The position numbers and the translations under genes were made by a program. A stretch of DNA of 64,000 bases from Scatophagus argus (lineage: Eukaryota > Chordata > Actinopteri > Scatophagidae): the NCBI RefSeq assembly GCF_020382885.2, contig NC_058498.1:10576501-10640500 (forward strand), written 5' to 3'. Positions 10,430-40,847 of the stretch are shown here, piece after piece (position 1 is the first letter of the stretch; each line of letters starts with the position of its first letter). A model generated the notes under the pieces. That model made no database searches. It was given only the letters and a program-made list of their open reading frames with translations, and had not been told where the DNA came from.

Positions 10430-11483
10430 CCCCTTTTCAATGTGCTCCTGGTAGCTAAACATTTCTATTGACTGGAGAGCTTTGAGAAATTCTAAAATAG
10501 GTAAAACAGTAAGTTTATTACATTTCATTTTACTTTATTTTTTATTTTCCCATGAAAACACCAAGACTGACAATGGATTGATGGTTCTAATCAACTGCCC
10601 GTGTACCTGAATCCTGATACACAGCGGCTCATCCCTCTGTGTCACAGACCGTTAAAAACACATAATTTAGGTGAGATGTTCCTTTATTACCATGAACACA
10701 GACACCATGATTGTAATTACTTACCAAATGTGTATTGATTCATGATCAAAAACAGTCCTCAATAAATGCAAAAAATTTACTCCTGTTTAAGTAATGTATG
10801 GTAAAAACTGCAGTGTTTAGAGTCTGTCCAATCTTCAGAAAATACATACTTTTATGTATTCTTTATTTATTTATTTCAAACCTATATTGACTCACTTTTT
10901 TCACTCAGGGGTGGTGCACTTTCTTTGAAGTTGAGGATCAGCCTGCCACTATAGCACCTCTCATTGCAGATGCATCTGGTCGACTGTCTTTTATAGAGTA
11001 GTGGCTGGCACCAACGAAACAATCTCTCCATTGAAAATTTGAGTATTTGTGTTCATTTAAGCACCCAGGAAAACCTTGCAAAGAGTCTGAGCCGCGCTAG
11101 AAGGACAAGAAAACAGATGGCATTTTAACCTCATTCAAACACTCCATCTTCTGTTGAAGTGAATTCAAAGCTCATTGGCGGAAGCAGCACTCATAGCTAA
11201 TCAAATTCAGCATTTTTTGAATTTGTTAGAAAACATGATGAAGATAGATGAATGTCAAGATATAAAACAACTTCCTCAGTTGTGCTGACAAAAGTACACT
11301 TGCAGTAATCAACAAAACTTTGATTCCTGTTCAACTATAAAATCTGTTTTGTATAAATGTCATTGCCCACTAGTCTTTGTTCTCATGTCAGTGTTCAAAA
11401 CTTCTGCTCTAAAGTGCCATTTAATACCAAAGTCTGTTTGATCTTGTTTTTCCTCAGATAGCGAGTCTGACTGCTTCAGCATA

Positions 11484-14400
11484 ATGGCCGCTTCTTACAA
11501 CTGCTCTTTGGATCTAATGGCTGAAAAAGGCAGCTGGTTTTGTCCTCAAGGAGAAAAGAGTTCCAATCTGACGCCCAGCACGAACAGCAGCCAAACAAAT
11601 CTGGATGATGCATGTCTGATGGAGTACCTGGAGAAATATCTGGGGCCTCGTCGATCACCTGTGTTCCTTCCCATGTGCCTCATCTACCTGGTCATCTTCA
11701 TGGTAGGTGTGGTGGGAAATGCGCTGACGTGCACCGTCATTGCACGCAACAAAGTGATGTGGACACCAACAAACTACTACCTGTTCAGCCTGGCAGTGTC
11801 AGACCTGCTTGTGCTGCTGCTCGGCATGCCATTAGAGCTGTACGAGCTGTGGCAGAACTATCCCTTCCTCCTGGGGAAGGGCAGCTGCTACTTTAAAACA
11901 TTCTTATTCGAGACTGTTTGCTTGGCGTCTATCCTCAATGTAACGGCGCTGAGCGTGGAACGTTACATTGCTGTGGTGCACCCGCTACGCGCAAAGTACG
12001 TTGTAACACGCACCCATGCCAAGCGGGTCATCTTAACGGTGTGGGGTGTGTCGATCTTGTGTGCTTTGCCTAACACAAGTCTGCATGGGATAGACGTCCT
12101 TCACCTTTGCTCCACGGGTCCTGCTGGGAACATAAGTATGGCGATTCCTGACTCAGCACTCTGCACCCTGGTGAAACCACGTTGGATGTACAACCTGACC
12201 ATTCAGGTGACCACCTTGCTTTTCTTCATTCTGCCCATGCTCACCATCAGCGCTCTCTACATGCTCATTGGGCTACAGCTGAAGCGGGAGAAGATGCATC
12301 AAGCGCTGGAGGCAAAGTCGAGCTTTGGACAAGACAGCTTCTGTAACATCCGAAGTCAGCAGCAGAAGGCACGTCGTCGGCAAGTCACTAAAATGTTGTG
12401 TGAGTATAAAACCATCCTGATGGTTTTTCTTTTTTCTTTTTAGAGAATCATAATCAGGTTTATTGGCCAAGTATGTTGGTACACACAAGGAATTTATTTT
12501 GGCTGGTGATGTCTCTTTAGCAATAAGACGATATATAGATGAGACAATATAAACTCAATTTTCATCATATATGCAACAAAACAATCTACGTGTTACAATA
12601 GATGTATTATCTACAAATGAGGCAGTATACACAGTATAAGTGCACTGGTAAAAAGACAACAATGTACAACGATGTGCAATATACATGAAGTGCAATGCAT
12701 TAGGCTGGTGTAGCCCAGTGATATGTCTCTGCAGCACAGGCTGTCAAGACACAAAATAGCTAGTGTGAGCTGCCTGAGTGAGTCACGTGGAGATTGTCAT
12801 CAGCAGGTTGATTGCAAGGGTGCAGGTCAGTTACATATGAGAGTGATGGAAAAATGAAAAAAGCTGTTCCTGAGTCCCGTGAAAAGAAATGATTTCCAGG
12901 ATGTGTGGGATCTTTAATGATGCTCCTTCCATTTCATAGTCCTTGAGTAATACAAGTCCTGGAGGCTGGGCAGAGAGGCTCCAATGGGTTGTCTTTGGGG
13001 CTGTTCTTACAGTACGTTGCAGTCTGACTCATATGTTTAGTGGCTGCTCCAAAACAGACTGTGATGTATGATTAGAGAACAGATTCGATGAGTGCAGTGT
13101 AAAACTGGATCAACAGCTCCCGTGGCAGTCTGTTCTTCCTCAGTTGCCACAGAAAGTACATCCTCTGCTCTACCACTTCATGTCCTGAGAAATAGTGGTT
13201 CCCAGGAACCTGAAGGTTGCAACAGGGCTGTCAGATATTGTGAAGGGGAGCTGTTCTGAGAGCTGTGTGCCAAAACTCACCTGCAAGTAAAGCCACTCAT
13301 GGGACATGTAGAGCCCAACTGAGACTAGAGTTTTGAAGCCGTACCTGTGTTTCAGAGTTTTGATGAGGGTGTAATCCTCTAAATTTTCTGAATGAGTATG
13401 GGGAAAATGCTTTTTGCGCTGGTGTGCATCACATGAATCTGAACTACCAAGTGAGGCCACAATGAAAAAATCATCTCACAGCCCAGAGATGTTCCTGGGG
13501 GCTTGTTTGTTATTGACAATAAAGGGAAGACAGCCCCACCACCTAACTTATTTATTTTCTCAGAATCACAAATGACAAATCCTTCACAATGAGCACCAAA
13601 GGAAGACCAGTGGCAAGGATCGATCTGAGCATTCAGACAAAAAAGTTCAAATAAATGTAGTATTTCAAGTCATTTGAAAACATCACAGTGGCGATTCGTG
13701 ATGGACTTTTCCCTTTTTTTCTGTTTTACAGAAGACAAAATTAATTTATTGTTCAGTAAGATACATGCATGTATCGCCATTACATTCAATATGTCTGATG
13801 TTTATGAAAGCGTAATCCACAAGGCATTACATTTCCCTCAAACATATTTTATAGTTGCTTATGAACATGAATAAATAATATTAACCAGTTTCCTCTTCAT
13901 GAAACACAAACACATTCAGATCTAACAGGATTCGTCCCAGACTGCCATATTGGTGTACTGACGCAGCCTGCATGTGCTTTTATATCACTCAGAGGTGAAG
14001 GTGAAAGAAAAGGTAGAAGTGAACGTCTTTCATGGCGCATATGGTTGAGTAGCATGAAGGTATTAATCTATAACTTATCTTAATCTAATGCTGTGACATT
14101 GATTTACCTGCTTGGCTGCACAGGGACACATCCAAGCCCCACCCCCAATCCTCCACCCCTTATCAGCTTGAAACATAAAATACACCAAAAAGAATACAGC
14201 AAATAACCTCGTGACAATCAGATGTTGCTCTATATAATTTAGTGCACATTGTTCCAGCACAGTCTAGACTTCTCCTCAGAGACATCAACAGCGAGACTTT
14301 TGAAATTGTGATTGTTATTTCAAGTAATGATTTGATCAAAAAAAGCAACATTTAGAAAATCAAAATCAGAGTATTCCTGGAAGATTTTCATGACTATCAC

Positions 14401-16277
14401 TCAAAGGATAGAAGCCTAAGGGTCAGAGAGGAAGAGAGAAGTCAAACAGTCAGTAATTACTCTTGATGGTTACGCCACAAACAGCTCCAGCTGCTGATGA
14501 GCAGAAGATACCTTGCGTCAGCAGCTTGGAGAAAATGTGCATAACCGCATGACTGTTAAGGCAATGCTCATCATGCATCACAAATGAGTGGACCGAAAAA
14601 CAGGTAAACGCTCTCATATCTATATGTAATGATATTCAAAGTCGCACCACATATTGTGTTACATTGGATATTTTGATGTGCATATGAATTGACCATTTTC
14701 TATCCAGCTACACAGTCAGACATCTCATAGCCTCATTTCTACATAACAGGCCATTCAGCAAATTATGGATTTATGTATAGATGAATGAATGCCTGTTGAA
14801 ACTCTCACACCTCAGGAGACTTCATGTGTAACAAATACACAGTGTGAGCATGATTCAGCAATAGCATGGCCAATTTCTTGATTGAAATGTCTATTAAAAC
14901 TGATTTTAGTGAGTACGGTAGTTGGATGTCCAAATAGCCACTGGGATTCTCCCCCTTTAAAACAGGAAGACAAGATCAACGATATCCCAACACATGGTGT
15001 GTTTGTCTAATCAAGTATAGGACAGAGATGATGTTTATATCTGTGATAGGGGATGTATACAGATATTTATGTATACTATATCCTGGAAATACTCTAATGA
15101 TCTCCATGGATATGTGATCATGTGAGTACAAAAATGTATGCGATTTCGACCAATTCTCACATTGTCAATTTTACTTTGAAATTTTCTCCAATAGCCCAGA
15201 TATTACCACAGAAGCATTCAATCTACAATAATACTTGCATTAACTTAGTTGCTTCCATTTTACAAATGAATCATACTAACTCATGGCCTTAACAGAATTG
15301 TTCAAATAAAGGTTAAATGACTAGCAGTTAGTGTGACGGGCAATGTCACTGTTGGGTAGATTTATATTTTAGATATAAATGGGCACAGCAGAAACATTTG
15401 ACAGGTAGGACCACCATGTTTAATTTATCTTTAAATCTTTAAACGTTACCATCACGGCTGAGAATTCCAACAGAAATAAACACGCTTGCCAATTTCTCTG
15501 CGATGCAAGTCAACCGCCAGTTTTCTATATGCAGATGTTGTTGTTGTTTTTGTCAGCCCAACTTCACTTCACAACTGTTCTGCTAGCTCTTTCACGAGGG
15601 CCACTCCAAAACCAGGAGTGGTAAAGATGAGTGCTGGGACCCATACTAACAACAGAAAACACACACGAATCATGACGTGACTCTAAAGATGTATTTGACA
15701 TTTCTGTTCAAAACTAAATCAAAGACTATGTGTCTAGGACAAAATGTCTCTGCACCACTGTCACACAGCCCCCAGAGTGACAATTAAATTGAGATCAAGG
15801 GAACATGCCGGCAACTCTAATCAATGTACTGCTATTAAAATTCCCTTTACTCAACTCCCATTGTGTCTTTTTCTCTCTCTTGCTGTTTTTGCAGTCGTTT
15901 TAGTGGTGGTTTTCGCAATCTGCTGGGCCCCATTTCACACAGACCGTCTCATGTGGAGTTTCATCAGTCACTGGACTGACAGTCACCTGGAAATCTTCCA
16001 GTACGTGCACATCATCTCCGGAGTGTTTTTCTACCTCAGCTCAGCAGTCAATCCAATCCTATACAACCTCATGTCCACACGCTTTAGAGAAATGTTCAAG
16101 GAGGTCATGTGCCATCGCCCACATCACACCGCTCCCAGGAAACACTCGCTCAGTGTCACCCGAGTGACGCTCCGCAGCACCTTGAGCGATGCGCCGCTCG
16201 GCAATGGCGCCGCTGTCGTTGAAGCCGAGGCAGAAGATGGAGAATTGAGGACGAAAGATGAGACCAGTTTTACATAG
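11484..16277 (+). CDS. nmur1: Neuromedin U receptor 1-like GPCR
   Basis: Rhodopsin-class receptor for neuromedin U and neuromedin S peptides, expected at the plasma membrane with Gq coupling. Two coding exons, 11,484-12,399 and 15,895-16,277, join in phase 1 ([21 protein letters not shown]) to give 432 aa, close to the 426 aa of human NMUR1. Exon 1 carries an N-terminus with N-glycosylation sites, TM1-TM5, the TM2 region [20 protein letters not shown], a DRY-box variant [12 protein letters not shown] and SLPNTS-like [10 protein letters not shown] before extracellular loop 2. Exon 2 carries TM6 (CWAPFH) and TM7 ([13 protein letters not shown]). The intron at the start of TM6 is the usual position in this family. 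RRRQVTKML, the [11 protein letters not shown] pattern and [14 protein letters not shown] in the tail favour NMUR1 over NMUR2. Which teleost duplicate (a or b) is not decidable. The start is the first ATG after a good acceptor at 11,457. Confidence 0.93.
12444..13515 (-). mobile_element. 5'-truncated LINE in nmur1 intron, antisense
   Basis: Read on the minus strand the copy contains FRFLGTTIS(x)DMKW from the reverse transcriptase C-terminal part (about 13,170-13,210), [10 protein letters not shown] (about 13,010) and [15 protein letters not shown] (about 12,890-12,930). It ends in a characteristic fish LINE tail at 12,444-12,495, where the plus strand reads AATCATAATCAGGTTTATTG. It is frameshifted and dead. 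Its 3' end lies only about 45 bases from the exon 1 splice donor of the nmur1-like gene. Confidence 0.8.
13520..15890 (+). other. Rest of the nmur1-like intron
   Basis: Intron sequence without recognisable repeat or exon on the plus strand. A 34-codon minus-strand frame with a signal-peptide-like start (15,673-15,569) is discussed under findings. Confidence 0.6.
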
Positions 16278-23435: not shown

Positions 23436-26400
23436 CACTGTAACAAATTACCTGTAGAATTTAAAGTAAATACCAGGCGAAAAAGTTACCAATAAATAGC
23501 TGTTACTTGTTCTTAATTCAGTATCTTACTGTAGAATGGGTTTACAGTTAATTTTTGTTTGTCACATTTAGCAAACTGGGCAGGCTGTGGCTGCTGATAC
23601 TCCAAAATATATCAACACTATGTTAGATTATCTTGAGCTGCTAAATAAAGTACTGCAAAAACACATTTATTAGGACTCAAAACAGTGTTTATTACATCAT
23701 ACAATTATATTCAATACAGTGTACCAGATTGCATAAAAGATGTGTATGAAACGTATGAAACTTTCCTTTTTATGAGCCAATAGGCATATGCATGGAAAGC
23801 ATAAACATTGGACAGACTGCACAAGACTATTGCAGCGTAGTCACTCATATTCAACTCAAATTTGTAACAACAATGTCAAATGTGTAGCATGTAAAAACTA
23901 ACCTTATTTTGAAACCAGTTTTGTTAAAGAAATACCATGTGCCATTGTCCTTACTTTTGCGACAGGCTCAAAGCCATTCATAGCCCATTAATCTTTTGAG
24001 AAGTGCAGAGACATGAGGGCTGACACTGTTGTTACTCTTTTTGTGCACCTTCCCACTTCTTCGACTGATCCACTTTGTCATCTTTGTGCCAGAGGTTGGG
24101 TTGATCTCGATGAAGCATCTGAAGTCACAAAATCAGAGAAAAAGACACTTAATGAAATACAATGTTCGAAGAGACAGCAAAACCCATCAAGTTGTGGAGA
24201 CTAGTTTATCATTTTTCCAAATATGCAAAACTTCAAAACAAAAATTTGCTTTAATTGCAGATGGTCCGTCCATGCAAGCTAAAGCAGAAATAATAATAAT
24301 AATCCACTAGCATCCCCTTTGAAGCACTTACCTTTGGATGAACTCCAGTGTGCTCGAGGCCTCCTCTTGGTACACCAGATTGAAGACGTAATAGCACGAG
24401 AAAAACACTGCCATGCCAGCCACAATGTTCTGGTGTGGACCCACAACCACTTGTCCCGCAATGCTAAGCATCCAGCTCGTTGGCGTGAGAACATCAGCTA
24501 AACATAAATAAACATATGCTTTATTATTGTTCTTCTGATTGTTCTTCAGATGCATGTTCTTTCTGTTGCCCTTCCACATGAAAATATCCATAGATTAAAT
24601 TAATTCATACTAGTCATTCATATAGTCTCTAGCTTTGCAACAGACTAAAAAAATACACTACCTACGACGATAAGTCTTGGAGACTCAGGAAGTGGCATTG
24701 TTCTCTCAATGTCAGCCGCTGTTGAGAACGCCTGTAAGACAAAGAAAAAATAAAGTGAAAACATAATCAGTAAATCCTATTATAGTTTCACTCTCATGGC
24801 CACACTGTTTGCACTTGTACATCTCTATGCTACAAAGTACAAAAAAGAGAAAACAAAACGAGTATGTCCAAAAACAACACAAATACAATAAGCAGAGCTT
24901 TAAGTAACCACAAATTTAACTAACCACATTTGGCTGTGCCCTCATTGGTGTCATAATGTAAGGACTAGTATTTCGCTATCCACTTAGTACAGCAAGAATA
25001 GTACTTAACTTAACTTACATGAGTTCCCTGAGCTTCTATATTAGCACAGATGTTGTGCTGAATCTCAACTACGTCAAATTTTAAAATCTCACAAATCAAA
25101 ACATGGTCAGCAATATAAACGTAACTGACAAATTTTTACCTGAAAATTGTCTTCACAGATGTGTGGTGATGATCACTGTGCTCTCTGCAGTAGGGCTCAC
25201 CGCCCAGGGTTTTCCTCTGCGTCTGTAGCAAGAGGACAGTTCAACAGCAAAACATGCATGCTGGTTACTGATGAGGTTAAACAATTTAACTGCTTAGCCA
25301 ATGTTAATTGTGCCTTTTTTCTATAACATAATCTTACCCAATATCAGATGTAACTCTCTGCCCAGATGGATTCCTCCAAGGTCCCACTCCAGACTGCTTC
25401 ACTTGGTGGAGCTGTAAGAGATGACTGATTGCTTGATTGGACTTCCATGCAATAAGAATTGTTGATATCGGCACATTAATTATATATAACTTCAGTTTCA
25501 GACGTCAACAATTTAATTCTTACTAATCACAATTGAAGTTATGACATCTTTAATTAAATTTGTACTCTATCTTCTATCTTTTCTCTCTCACTTTCACACA
25601 CAGATGACTGACGTTTGACAGCAAAAAATTACTTTTTAATGGACACAATTTTGGACTTAAGGGCAGGGATATATCAGATTCTTAGCAACAAACCTCTTCC
25701 AGTTCTAATTAAACCCAATAAAAACTCTGAAGATTCAATGTTAAGTATTAGCCGAGCTCAAGCTCACACAGTGTGTAAAGCGTGTGTGCTACTGTAACTG
25801 CAGTATAAATTACCATGGTGAGCATGCAAAACAGAGGAAAACCCCCCGGACTTAGTACCTCTGTAATGTCATACTAACGTGTAACATAATACCATAACGT
25901 GTAACGTGACAACTATGCGCAATCGGCTTTCGCTCCAACAGTTTTCTAACCTGGAGGGTTTTAGATAATGTGCTAGCAATCCCTCTGTCCTGGAGGTGAC
26001 GGGGCTAATGCCGGAAGCTAGCGATAGCTTAACTTAACCAGTATTTCGCTAGCTAACATTTGCAAAAACAGTGCAGTCTGCGTCCCACAACCCGTATTCC
26101 GTATAAAACACGACTAAGATAAATAAAATAAAGTGAAATACCGTCACTCACACAAATAAAGAATTATTATACTTACCGAAATGCTGGTTTTGCAGCTTCC
26201 TCTTCACCGATCTCTTGCCTGCTTCGTGTCTGTCGGCAACACGCATATTCTTTAATTAAATTAAACGTGCAAACGAGTCTGATATACGGTCAAATTATAT
26301 TGTATGAAGTTACCGTTTGATTAACATTTGAATTTTGTAGGCTAATACCGTGTTACTTACAATATTGACTTGATGGATGTCGGGTTCACTACCCCGCGTC

Positions 26401-26662
26401 CGCCAGTAACTAAATGTCATGTCCTCTTTCAAACCGCCTTCTAATAACAGTGTTTAACTGTAATATGTATCGTTTACAGTCAGAACTCAGTGAAAACACA
26501 ACCATCCTGTAATTTTACAGAAAAAAATTAAATTAACTTTAAGTTACTGTAATTATTTATCACCCATAATGCATTGCAAGATACAGTTACACCTAGTAAA
26601 ATATTAGAACAAGAAGCTACTGTAATTTTTTACTGTAGAAATTACAGAAATTTGTTACAGTG
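23436..26662. mobile_element. CACTA/EnSpm-like DNA transposon, about 3.2 kb
   Basis: The left end starts CACTGTAACAAATT (23,436) and the right end is its exact reverse complement, AATTTGTTACAGTG, ending at 26,662. Both ends are flanked by CA (23,434-23,435 and 26,663-26,664), a 2-bp duplication as CACTA-type elements make. Inside the ends are many short subterminal repeats around ACTGTA and TTACAG (23,455-23,560; 26,440-26,640), also typical of the group. No transposase was found, so the copy is non-autonomous. It contains a spliced minus-strand gene. The superfamily is inferred from ends only. Confidence 0.6.
23968..24731 (-). CDS. Spliced gene of a multicopy fish family (LEFIQR...INP) in transposon
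   Basis: Three minus-strand exons join in frame: 24,731-24,662, 24,497-24,332 and 24,118-23,968, all with GT-AG borders, ending at TGA. The first in-frame ATG is at 24,698, giving 117 aa. The product has an acidic start (ERTMPLPESPRL), a hydrophobic middle (IVAGMAVFFSCYYVFNLVYQ), then EEASSTLEFIQRCFIEINP and a basic tail. I recall this C-terminal module (YQEEAxxTLEFIQRxFxxINP) from many uncharacterised teleost proteins, some with SAM domains; their function is unknown. Likely further exons upstream (25,222-25,140; 25,411-25,338; about 26,230-26,177, all with good splice sites) do not give one continuous frame with it, so the 5' part is non-coding or decayed. It may be a captured host gene, an element-encoded accessory gene, or a pseudogene. 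Confidence 0.5.
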
Positions 26663-26669
26663 CAGATAA

Positions 26670-39172: not shown

Positions 39173-40847
39173 ATGGAACTACAGGAGTGGACCCGTATCT
39201 TCAAGATGAAAGCAATGAATCTTCAACAAGACCACTCATGGCATCTGGAGTTTGATGAAAGTCTTGTCCCTGATTCTCCAAACTCAGGCTGGCAGCAGTA
39301 CATCAGGAACACAAGTGCAAGGTCAGTATACTGATCTGCTGTTAATCGCTGTACTGGCTGTGTATACACAGCACATATATTTTATATAAATGGTAATATT
39401 TTAGTGGATGCATAGGTTTCTCAGGGTTTGTATATATATTAGGATCAAAGGTCCCCAAGTTTTAGGGGGATTTTTTGTAAACTCTTCCAATTTTTGTTAT
39501 TCATCAAATCTCACTGTGCACATCCTTAAGGTCTAGCAAATGTGTTTAATGTAGTTCCTTCCTCACAAAACATTTTCTGAGCTGATTTTTTATATGCAAC
39601 TTGCATTGATTAGATTCATTTTTATTTAACTGCAAACTCACTGTCTTTGTTGAAATGTCGCTGGGAAAACACTGGCATTGTTGGGAATCATGTTACCAAT
39701 GTACAAACAATATGGGGATTCACTCATATATAAACTGCTCCGTAGATAAACTGGCTTATTTTAGACGTAGAAATATATTGAAAAAAGAAATAATAACAGG
39801 CATTAAAATCAGCTGATAGACTGGTAACATCTGAACTGTAGAGAAAGAAGTCTGGTTTCATTATGTAAGCAGTAGAGATAAGCAGAAAAATGCAACAAGT
39901 TTCATTCTTGTGAAGCACACTATTTCAATACATCAGACCTTGTGTCATGGTGATGGTGTCAGAAGCTCCAAATATCACTGGCACTTTGGAAAGTACTACA
40001 TTTAATTTGACAGGCTGCTATAAGTTTTTCAAACCACCAGATGTCACTATTCTTCTCCGTTTGAAACCCCTGAAGTTTTAACTCCTTTTTTAAAGGCACA
40101 AATAAAAGACTTCATCTGAGAAGGGATCAAGTCTCGCAAACAGAGATCATTACCCAACCCTGATAAAGTAGTTTTGGTGCCTAAACCTGACTATTTCAAG
40201 CATGTGGTATTCATATCTGCAGACAGACAGACTCTGATTGTCAATCACCAGTAGTCACAAAAGTGACAACATCTAATGGCTCATTCTCTTGACATTTACC
40301 TTTTTCACTGGCATCACTCTAGCTACATTATTTAGTCAATAAAGTGTGTCAGCCTTTTAGACTTTTAAACCCAATTTCAATAATGATTCCTTTCTCCAGA
40401 GCATCTGCTTCTTCCAAGAAGTGTCGCCAAAACCCGATTCTCCACTCTAAGTCGGGTTTGTCGTTTAAAGGGCCAGCTCAAACTTTCTCAAACTTGGCTG
40501 TTCTGTCATTTTCAAGGTTCAGATGCAGTGCGTGTGGAAGAAGCTGGCCATCCAACCGGGTGATGGTGGTTTTCCACATGCGTCTGACGTACGGGCAGGG
40601 CACTGTCAAGGTCAGGCGTTTCCGTCAGAACTGCAAGAACTGCCAAGCAGCTCCGATGGAGAACCCCAGCATCTCCTCCGACAACATCAACATCCTTATG
40701 GAGAACCTGGTGAAGAAGATCAGGATAAAATGCTACCACGAGCAGCTAGAGAAAGCGGACAGGCCTTTTGTTAACCTGGATGTCAAAAGTCCCCATGAGC
40801 CCGCTCATTGTGAGGCTTGTATGGCCGGCATCTGCACAAGGAGCTGA
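39173..40847 (+). CDS. Receptor-transporting protein (3CxxC zinc finger)
   Basis: RTP-family protein, 159 aa from two exons, 39,173-39,321 and 40,517-40,847, joined in phase 2 (NTSAR|FRCSACGRSW). Mammalian relatives RTP1/2 carry odorant receptors to the cell surface and RTP4 is an interferon-induced antiviral protein. The N-terminus (MELQEWTRIFKMKAMN) and the core GWQQYIRNTSARFRC, then VMVVFHMRL, GTVKVRRFRQNCKNC, NLVKKIRIKCYHE and HCEACMAGIC show the complete zf-3CxxC domain with its CxxC pairs. There is no C-terminal membrane helix as in mammalian RTP1-4; the protein stops right after the last cysteines. An upstream in-frame ATG (39,122) is possible, but 39,173 gives the usual family start. 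Splicing at 40,400 instead would insert 39 residues and break the conserved core. Fish copies are usually named rtp3 or RTP3-like. Confidence 0.88.

Follow-up and report, generated by a model that had tools for sequence, protein, structure and literature searches.

A probable non-autonomous CACTA/EnSpm transposon in Scatophagus argus and the second gene whose 3′ end it most likely carries

Introduction

The maize transposon Spm has CACTA ends and subterminal repeats, generates a 3-bp target-site duplication, and coexists with internally deleted copies known as dSpm. Here we describe a 3,227-bp element of related architecture in the fish Scatophagus argus, located at positions 23436..26662 of a 64,000-nucleotide stretch of DNA (RefSeq assembly GCF_020382885.2, contig NC_058498.1; C6:10576501-10640500), the whole of which we refer to as the window. 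The element is very probably a non-autonomous CACTA/EnSpm (CMC) transposon that was internally deleted from a longer two-gene element. It carries three predicted coding exons on its minus strand (exons A to C, whose product we call the module), and these most likely derive from the 3′ end of a second gene belonging to the element itself, and not from a host gene that it captured.

Among the systems closest to this one, the plant proteins TNPA and TNPD are both essential, and TNPD binds TNPA, according to the passages on them in PMC1636069. The same passages describe SmTRC1, for which 7 of 14 copies show a duplication of 2 bp and which has a Transposase_21-type protein and further non-transposase products. 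Transposases of the CMC group are defined, in the relevant part of PMC12730594, by a DDE triad with C(2)C and H(3-4)H motifs. For zebrafish, the entries concerned in PMC3485254 and PMC9341512 list EnSpm-N families, which are non-autonomous and of the EnSpm class.

Compared with Spm, the window element has a duplication of 2 bp instead of 3 bp, and the second gene of its relatives lies downstream and has a SAM- or PB1-like hint. As with maize Spm and its tnpD and tnpA genes, a transposase is joined here by a second element-encoded protein, and both proteins are needed in maize (PMC1636069). The likeness to animal CACTA elements (TRC, SmTRC1) extends to the 2-bp duplication, the presence of non-transposase products and perhaps the Transposase_21-type protein. 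The passages of PMC1636069 report nothing detectably similar to the other SmTRC1 products among other animal TRC elements; the second gene described here, by contrast, recurs across subfamilies. The window element is non-autonomous like the zebrafish EnSpm-N families, but stands apart from them in being 3.2 kb long with three coding exons. No description of this second gene in fish CACTA elements was found among the open PMC matches listed. Repbase, which lies outside that scope, may well hold these elements, and we therefore claim no new family.

Results

Ends and copies of the element

The borders of the element and the repeats next to them are as follows.

23436..26662, gene strand minus: whole element, 3227 bp, with exact ends, CA/CA flanks and copies in the genome
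23434..23435, no strand: target-site duplication CA, left copy
26663..26664, no strand: target-site duplication CA, right copy
23436..23449, plus strand: left terminal inverted repeat CACTGTAACAAATT
26649..26662, minus strand: right terminal inverted repeat
26457..26661: right subterminal ACTGTA/TACAGT cluster, 7 in the terminal 300 bp
23437..23720: left subterminal ACTGTA/TACAGT cluster, 4 in the terminal 300 bp

The two 14-bp CACTG ends are 100% complementary and form the only exact CACT-starting inverted pair of this length, at a spacing of 0.5-10 kb, in the 64-kb window; the 2-bp flanks of this pair match. Dinucleotide shuffles (n = 200) produced a mean of 0.015 such pairs, and none with a matching flank. 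The motif ACTGTA/TACAGT occurs 11 times in the two terminal 300-bp stretches, compared with 0.8 expected from the window average, and the count of 7 at the right end is higher than in any 300-bp stretch outside the element, where the maximum is 4; the left end, with 4, only reaches that maximum. Both the ends and the clustering of the motif are far above chance. A first-pass annotation of this DNA had proposed exact 14-bp inverted ends, a 2-bp CA duplication, ACTGTA-type subterminal repeats and a CACTA/EnSpm-like element, and all of these proposals hold, the repeats most clearly at the right end.

One genome, of 570.7 Mb, was searched. The DNA of the window element has at least 28 matching pieces there, including sister copies on C16, C18, C22 and C5 that have ends and body in common with it, and divergent relatives on C12. 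Both ends are present in the copies at C16:21447523-21450624, which has a CA/CA flank, and at C18:21414874-21424504, in which the right end reads CAATG; the copies on C22 and at 20.07 Mb of C5 keep the left end. Inside the C18 copy lies a piece of a broken retroelement (L012:1300-2900), with open reading frames that we take to be reverse-transcriptase-like. On C12, at 10.54-10.57 Mb, a stretch containing a divergent relative of the element is present in three copies about 10-13 kb apart, which suggests local duplication.

A search with the left-end pattern allowing up to three mismatches gave 28 matches, compared with 24 in a reversed control, and we therefore trust only the 6 with at most one mismatch, a subset without a separate control. 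The module follows in five of these six. The exception, at C5:696560, has a good left end (one mismatch), and the surrounding 9.5 kb that was retrieved contains neither a module nor a match to the transposase.

The 128-amino-acid module protein gave 30 matches, which fall into 21 loci, and ends were assessed at the 11 for which DNA was fetched. Both ends are present at five (the window, C16, C18:21.41 Mb, C23:14.18 Mb and C18:21.52 Mb), the left end alone at three (C22, C5 and C1:596 kb, the last two starting with T), and subterminal sequence only at one (C2). The 2-bp flanks match in three of the five two-ended copies (CA, CA and TA). The C23 element is 2604 bp long; its DNA similarity to the window element is confined to the ends, and its module is about 48% identical in protein. 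Transport inside such elements had been suggested as a possible source of the module's copy number, and this is supported.

Exons and the deletion junction

The features predicted inside the element are listed here in the direction of the gene.

26176..26250, minus strand: candidate first exon with GTAAGT donor, probably an untranslated leader, with a provisional 5′ limit; aligned with the donor in the C16 and C18 copies
25338..25411, minus strand: candidate exon U1, coding not supported
25140..25222, minus strand: candidate exon U2, coding not supported; donor lost in C22
24769..24822, minus strand: remnant of the transposase C2H2 zinc-finger exon, comprising the ATG and the codons after it, 18 in all
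24768..24769: deletion junction between the transposase remnant and the intron before exon A
24662..24731, minus strand: exon A of the second gene, whose ATG opens the 117-amino-acid module reading frame; homologous exon in C1b, the module locus at C1:203 kb
24332..24497, minus strand: exon B of the second gene, module core
23968..24118, minus strand: exon C of the second gene, includes the stop
23688..23693, minus strand: polyadenylation-signal-like AATAAA, with a second at 23666-23671

Exons A, B and C are predicted to splice at GT/AG borders into 128 codons and a stop, in agreement with the earlier proposal of a minus-strand gene with at least three in-frame exons. Up to three further 5′ exons had also been proposed, and as coding exons these are not supported: the ATG of the candidate first exon is never in frame with the module, and none of the 16 combinations of the four candidate upstream exons adds an in-frame start, except by reading through the intron-like stretch before exon A, which gives 139 amino acids instead of 117. 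Three Pfam queries with the module protein returned no family.

Upstream of exon A, the window copy carries the first 18 codons of a zinc-finger exon and then jumps to the intron preceding that exon. The C5 copy, which belongs to the window's own subfamily, has a longer version of this zinc-finger exon upstream of exon B, and it is 37% identical (E 7e-15) to the N-terminus of the transposase of C18b, a longer element described below. The remainder of the transposase and the 5′ part of the second gene have apparently been lost at the window junction. The earlier observation that no transposase is present was therefore nearly right, in that there is no full one, but it missed this 18-codon remnant.

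The junction of the window copy is identical in C22, and in no other of the five copies. In the C18 copy the zinc-finger exon is deleted from before its ATG, and about 75 bp more is kept on the other side; the C5 copy was cut at different positions again and no longer has exon A; the C16 copy is without the junction stretch. The five copies thus go back to one parent through three or more distinct internal deletions. Like dSpm, the window element keeps its ends, lacks a transposase and has sequence in common with a longer copy, as seen in the zinc-finger exon, cut after 18 codons here and longer in C5, and in the C23 element when compared with C2. Since a transposase stub is joined to an intron and other copies have other breakpoints, we regard the window element as a dSpm-like deletion derivative.

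Transposase-bearing relatives and the second gene

The wider family was found with a transposase probe (a fish CACTA-type core) and a second-gene protein probe, both typed by hand. The transposase core gave 108 matches (92 of 217 candidates scored). At three of the 21 module loci, on C18, C1 and C2, the module is preceded on its own strand by a transposase at a distance of 1.9-3.3 kb, compared with 0.012 loci of this order and strand expected by chance, and no other arrangement of transposase and module occurs within 8 kb of the module loci. The second-gene search gave 101 matches (86 of 308 candidates scored) at 64 loci. For 28 of these loci a same-strand transposase is found no more than 8 kb upstream; one pair is arranged otherwise. 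A second element gene adjoining the transposase, as expected of a TnpA-like system, is thus seen at these 28 second-gene loci and three module loci.

One transposase-bearing relative is the following.

C18:21518476-21525927: CACTG element C18b, 7452 bp, with ends CACTGTAA...TTACAGTG and TA/TA flanks

This element contains the C2H2 region, the transposase in broken frames, a SAM-like open reading frame and exons A to C, and an end pair with matching flanks such as its own occurred in none of 300 shuffles. It is inserted in a dispersed repeat: its joined flanks match 89 pieces, 9 of which cross the junction, and four of these nine were fetched. For the repeat copy on C7, the alignment around the junction is free of gaps and contains a single TA, and the copy on C16 has a single TA with gaps immediately to its left. 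Because these two repeats carry a single TA, the insertion of C18b is documented by an empty site and a 2-bp duplication. In the sister subfamily, the small C23 element can be aligned at the DNA level with the transposase-bearing C2 locus over the leader, the subterminal sequence on one side, and exon B together with the sequence flanking it 5′.

In the four transposases that were read (three with broken frames, X-joined), D, D, C(2)C and H(3)H are present in all. The E pattern as written was found in one; the translations of the remaining three show a readable RFE(S/A)KH. The transposase of locus L071 has no relatives in the viral or prokaryote collections, and the second gene beside it has none in the viral collection. 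A search of the genome with PF02992 gave one match over the cut-off, which does not represent the family of the window element; this single Transposase_21 match, at C15:22573426-22573737, belongs to a CACTA transposase of another and more canonical kind, whose frames are broken.

The C-terminus of the second gene matches the window module in a single HHalign comparison (probability 96.7, E 4.6e-10), for which the alignments included one hand-typed row and hand-joined exons. The middle regions of the second genes align at 23-24%. Their heads are SAM-like or, in a sister group, PB1-like, both under the Pfam cut-offs and hence hints only. Neither a forkhead hint (E 0.24; 0.77 with a profile) nor a Myb hint (E 0.059) is significant. 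In C1b the SAM-like open reading frame overlaps the end of the transposase frame in a different frame, which suggests that the second gene is a separate reading frame. Presumably the same kind of C-terminal end, following a SAM- or PB1-like start, is found in the multi-copy teleost proteins known as SAMD3-like.

Four pairs of transposase matches have equal or near-equal scores and open frames, with second-gene matches adjoining, some of which contain a stop (C1:4344656/C12:8141818, C4:25755689/C12:1956277, C8:24908344/C18:14403250 and C15:16894108/C13:12064952); they look as if copied recently. Candidate ends at C12:8138600, CACTGAAAAAAA (13/16), were too weak and were not used.

Divergence between copies

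Between the window copy and its four close copies, exons B and C differ by about 4-5% substitutions and the sequence outside the exons by 3.7-5.1%, in a comparison that took exon B 12 bases and exon A 10 bases short. Reading frames are breaking in the copies, with a frameshift in exon C of C18, an early stop in C5 and 3-base deletions in C16 and C22. Within families, each pair of exons B differs by 0-3 silent and 4-7 replacement changes, which gives a synonymous divergence (dS) of 0-0.09 and a nonsynonymous divergence (dN) of 0.03-0.06. In the three pairs computed between subfamilies, dN is 0.39-0.45 and dS is saturated. Because exons diverge like non-exon sequence and frames break, and the protein is kept between subfamilies, individual copies seem to degenerate once inserted, the protein being preserved along the mobile lineage. 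Such decay with retention at the level of the lineage is what would be expected of a transposon gene and not of a host gene.

Two other features of the window lie outside the element. Two long open reading frames on the plus strand, at 11442-12443 and 15738-16277, resemble exons of a rhodopsin-type receptor, which we take to be neuromedin U receptor-like. A third frame, of 174 amino acids with CxxC pairs (40323-40847, plus strand), is presumably receptor-transporter-like.

Discussion

These results are most readily explained by a parent element with two tandem genes, in which the transposase would come first and the intron-bearing second gene next. The parent transposase would have combined an N-terminal C2H2 zinc-finger region with a D-D-C(2)C-H(3)H-E catalytic part, and the second gene would have encoded an N-terminal SAM hint (PB1 in the sister group), a middle region and the C-terminal module. 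The window copy would then retain the ends, the subterminal repeats, the leader, 18 transposase codons and the last three exons of the second gene. The transposase of another copy could act on these ends by cut-and-paste, leaving a 2-bp duplication, so that the window copy was presumably mobilized in trans. The module that it still carries is probably a relic.

Several observations weigh against this interpretation. A search for the empty site of the window copy with its flanks matched only its own two flanks, and for C18b the junction alignment is too poor to tell in two of the four target-repeat copies. No ends were recognized at two of the eleven assessed module loci (C1b and C20), and the flanks do not match in the two-ended copies at C18:21.41 Mb and C23. 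The DNA search, itself a lower bound, yielded no transposase-bearing copy with the inner sequence of the window's subfamily, and the wider family was found with hand-typed probes. The match of Pfam Transposase_21 to the L071 protein (E 7.8e-4, 19.1 bits) is below the cut-off of 28.6, the C18b and C1b cores do not match that family, and HHalign comparisons with a canonical CACTA transposase are weak (probabilities of 17, 11 and 0.1 for three pieces). Finally, Pfam and PDB comparisons gave no curated DNA-binding domain in the second gene.

By analogy with other two-gene CACTA elements, the protein of the second gene may be TnpA-like: it would bind the ACTGTA subterminal repeats, multimerize and, jointly with the transposase, pair the ends of the element. 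We consider the case for this role to be evenly balanced. Alternatively, the second gene could be an element gene of another kind, providing a chromatin tether or a counter to host silencing. The SAM- and PB1-like matches, although below cut-off, suggest polymerizing scaffolds, and no DNA-binding domain is certain; the TnpA-like role is favored over this only by the analogy just mentioned. We regard such a different role as a tentative but real possibility.

Truncated repressors of DNA transposons are known, such as KP of the P element, and a deletion derivative might similarly make a functional 117-amino-acid module protein from the ATG of exon A, acting as a regulator in trans. The open frame and intact splice borders in the window copy would fit this, as would the occurrence of the same derivative, with an identical junction, in the window and C22. 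However, exon divergence equals non-exon divergence, and the frameshift, early stop and 3-base deletions of the C18, C5, C16 and C22 copies also speak against such a function, and we think a regulator of this kind unlikely.

The first-pass annotation had left open whether the gene was captured from the host or was an accessory gene of the element, and only the second of these survives well. A spliced host gene carried as cargo might be suspected from the introns, from the lack of a full transposase in the window copy and from a module without a Pfam family. However, elements that do not resemble the window element at the DNA level also carry this module downstream of a transposase, a transposase stub is kept upstream of it within the element itself, and the exons are as divergent between copies as the sequence around them. 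Capture is therefore not supported; the tandem order in fuller relatives and the stub largely refute it, with ends assessed at 11 of 21 loci in one genome, and we consider it very improbable. That an ordinary host gene is flanked by ends matching by chance is refuted by the shuffles and by the copies with the same borders, and its probability is negligible.

A broader scenario, which we put forward as doubtful, is that fish CACTA elements have kept a second gene as a TnpA made from a different protein, with a polymerizing SAM- or PB1-like head, a DNA-contacting middle and the conserved C-terminal module. The multi-copy fish genes would then be its copies, and 117-amino-acid derivatives might compete with the full protein, so that the element would supply its own brake.

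Returning to the reading that we prefer, with the exons as the end of an element gene, the window element itself is an ordinary deletion derivative. If the gene that it carries is the tail of a transposon's second gene, this would explain why such genes are present in many copies in the genome. Many-copy genes of no known function would thereby become a transposon accessory gene with a partner, the adjoining transposase, and a target, the ACTGTA repeats. Our findings also suggest that gene annotations of the module in fish genomes are best regarded as transposon sequence until there is evidence to the contrary.
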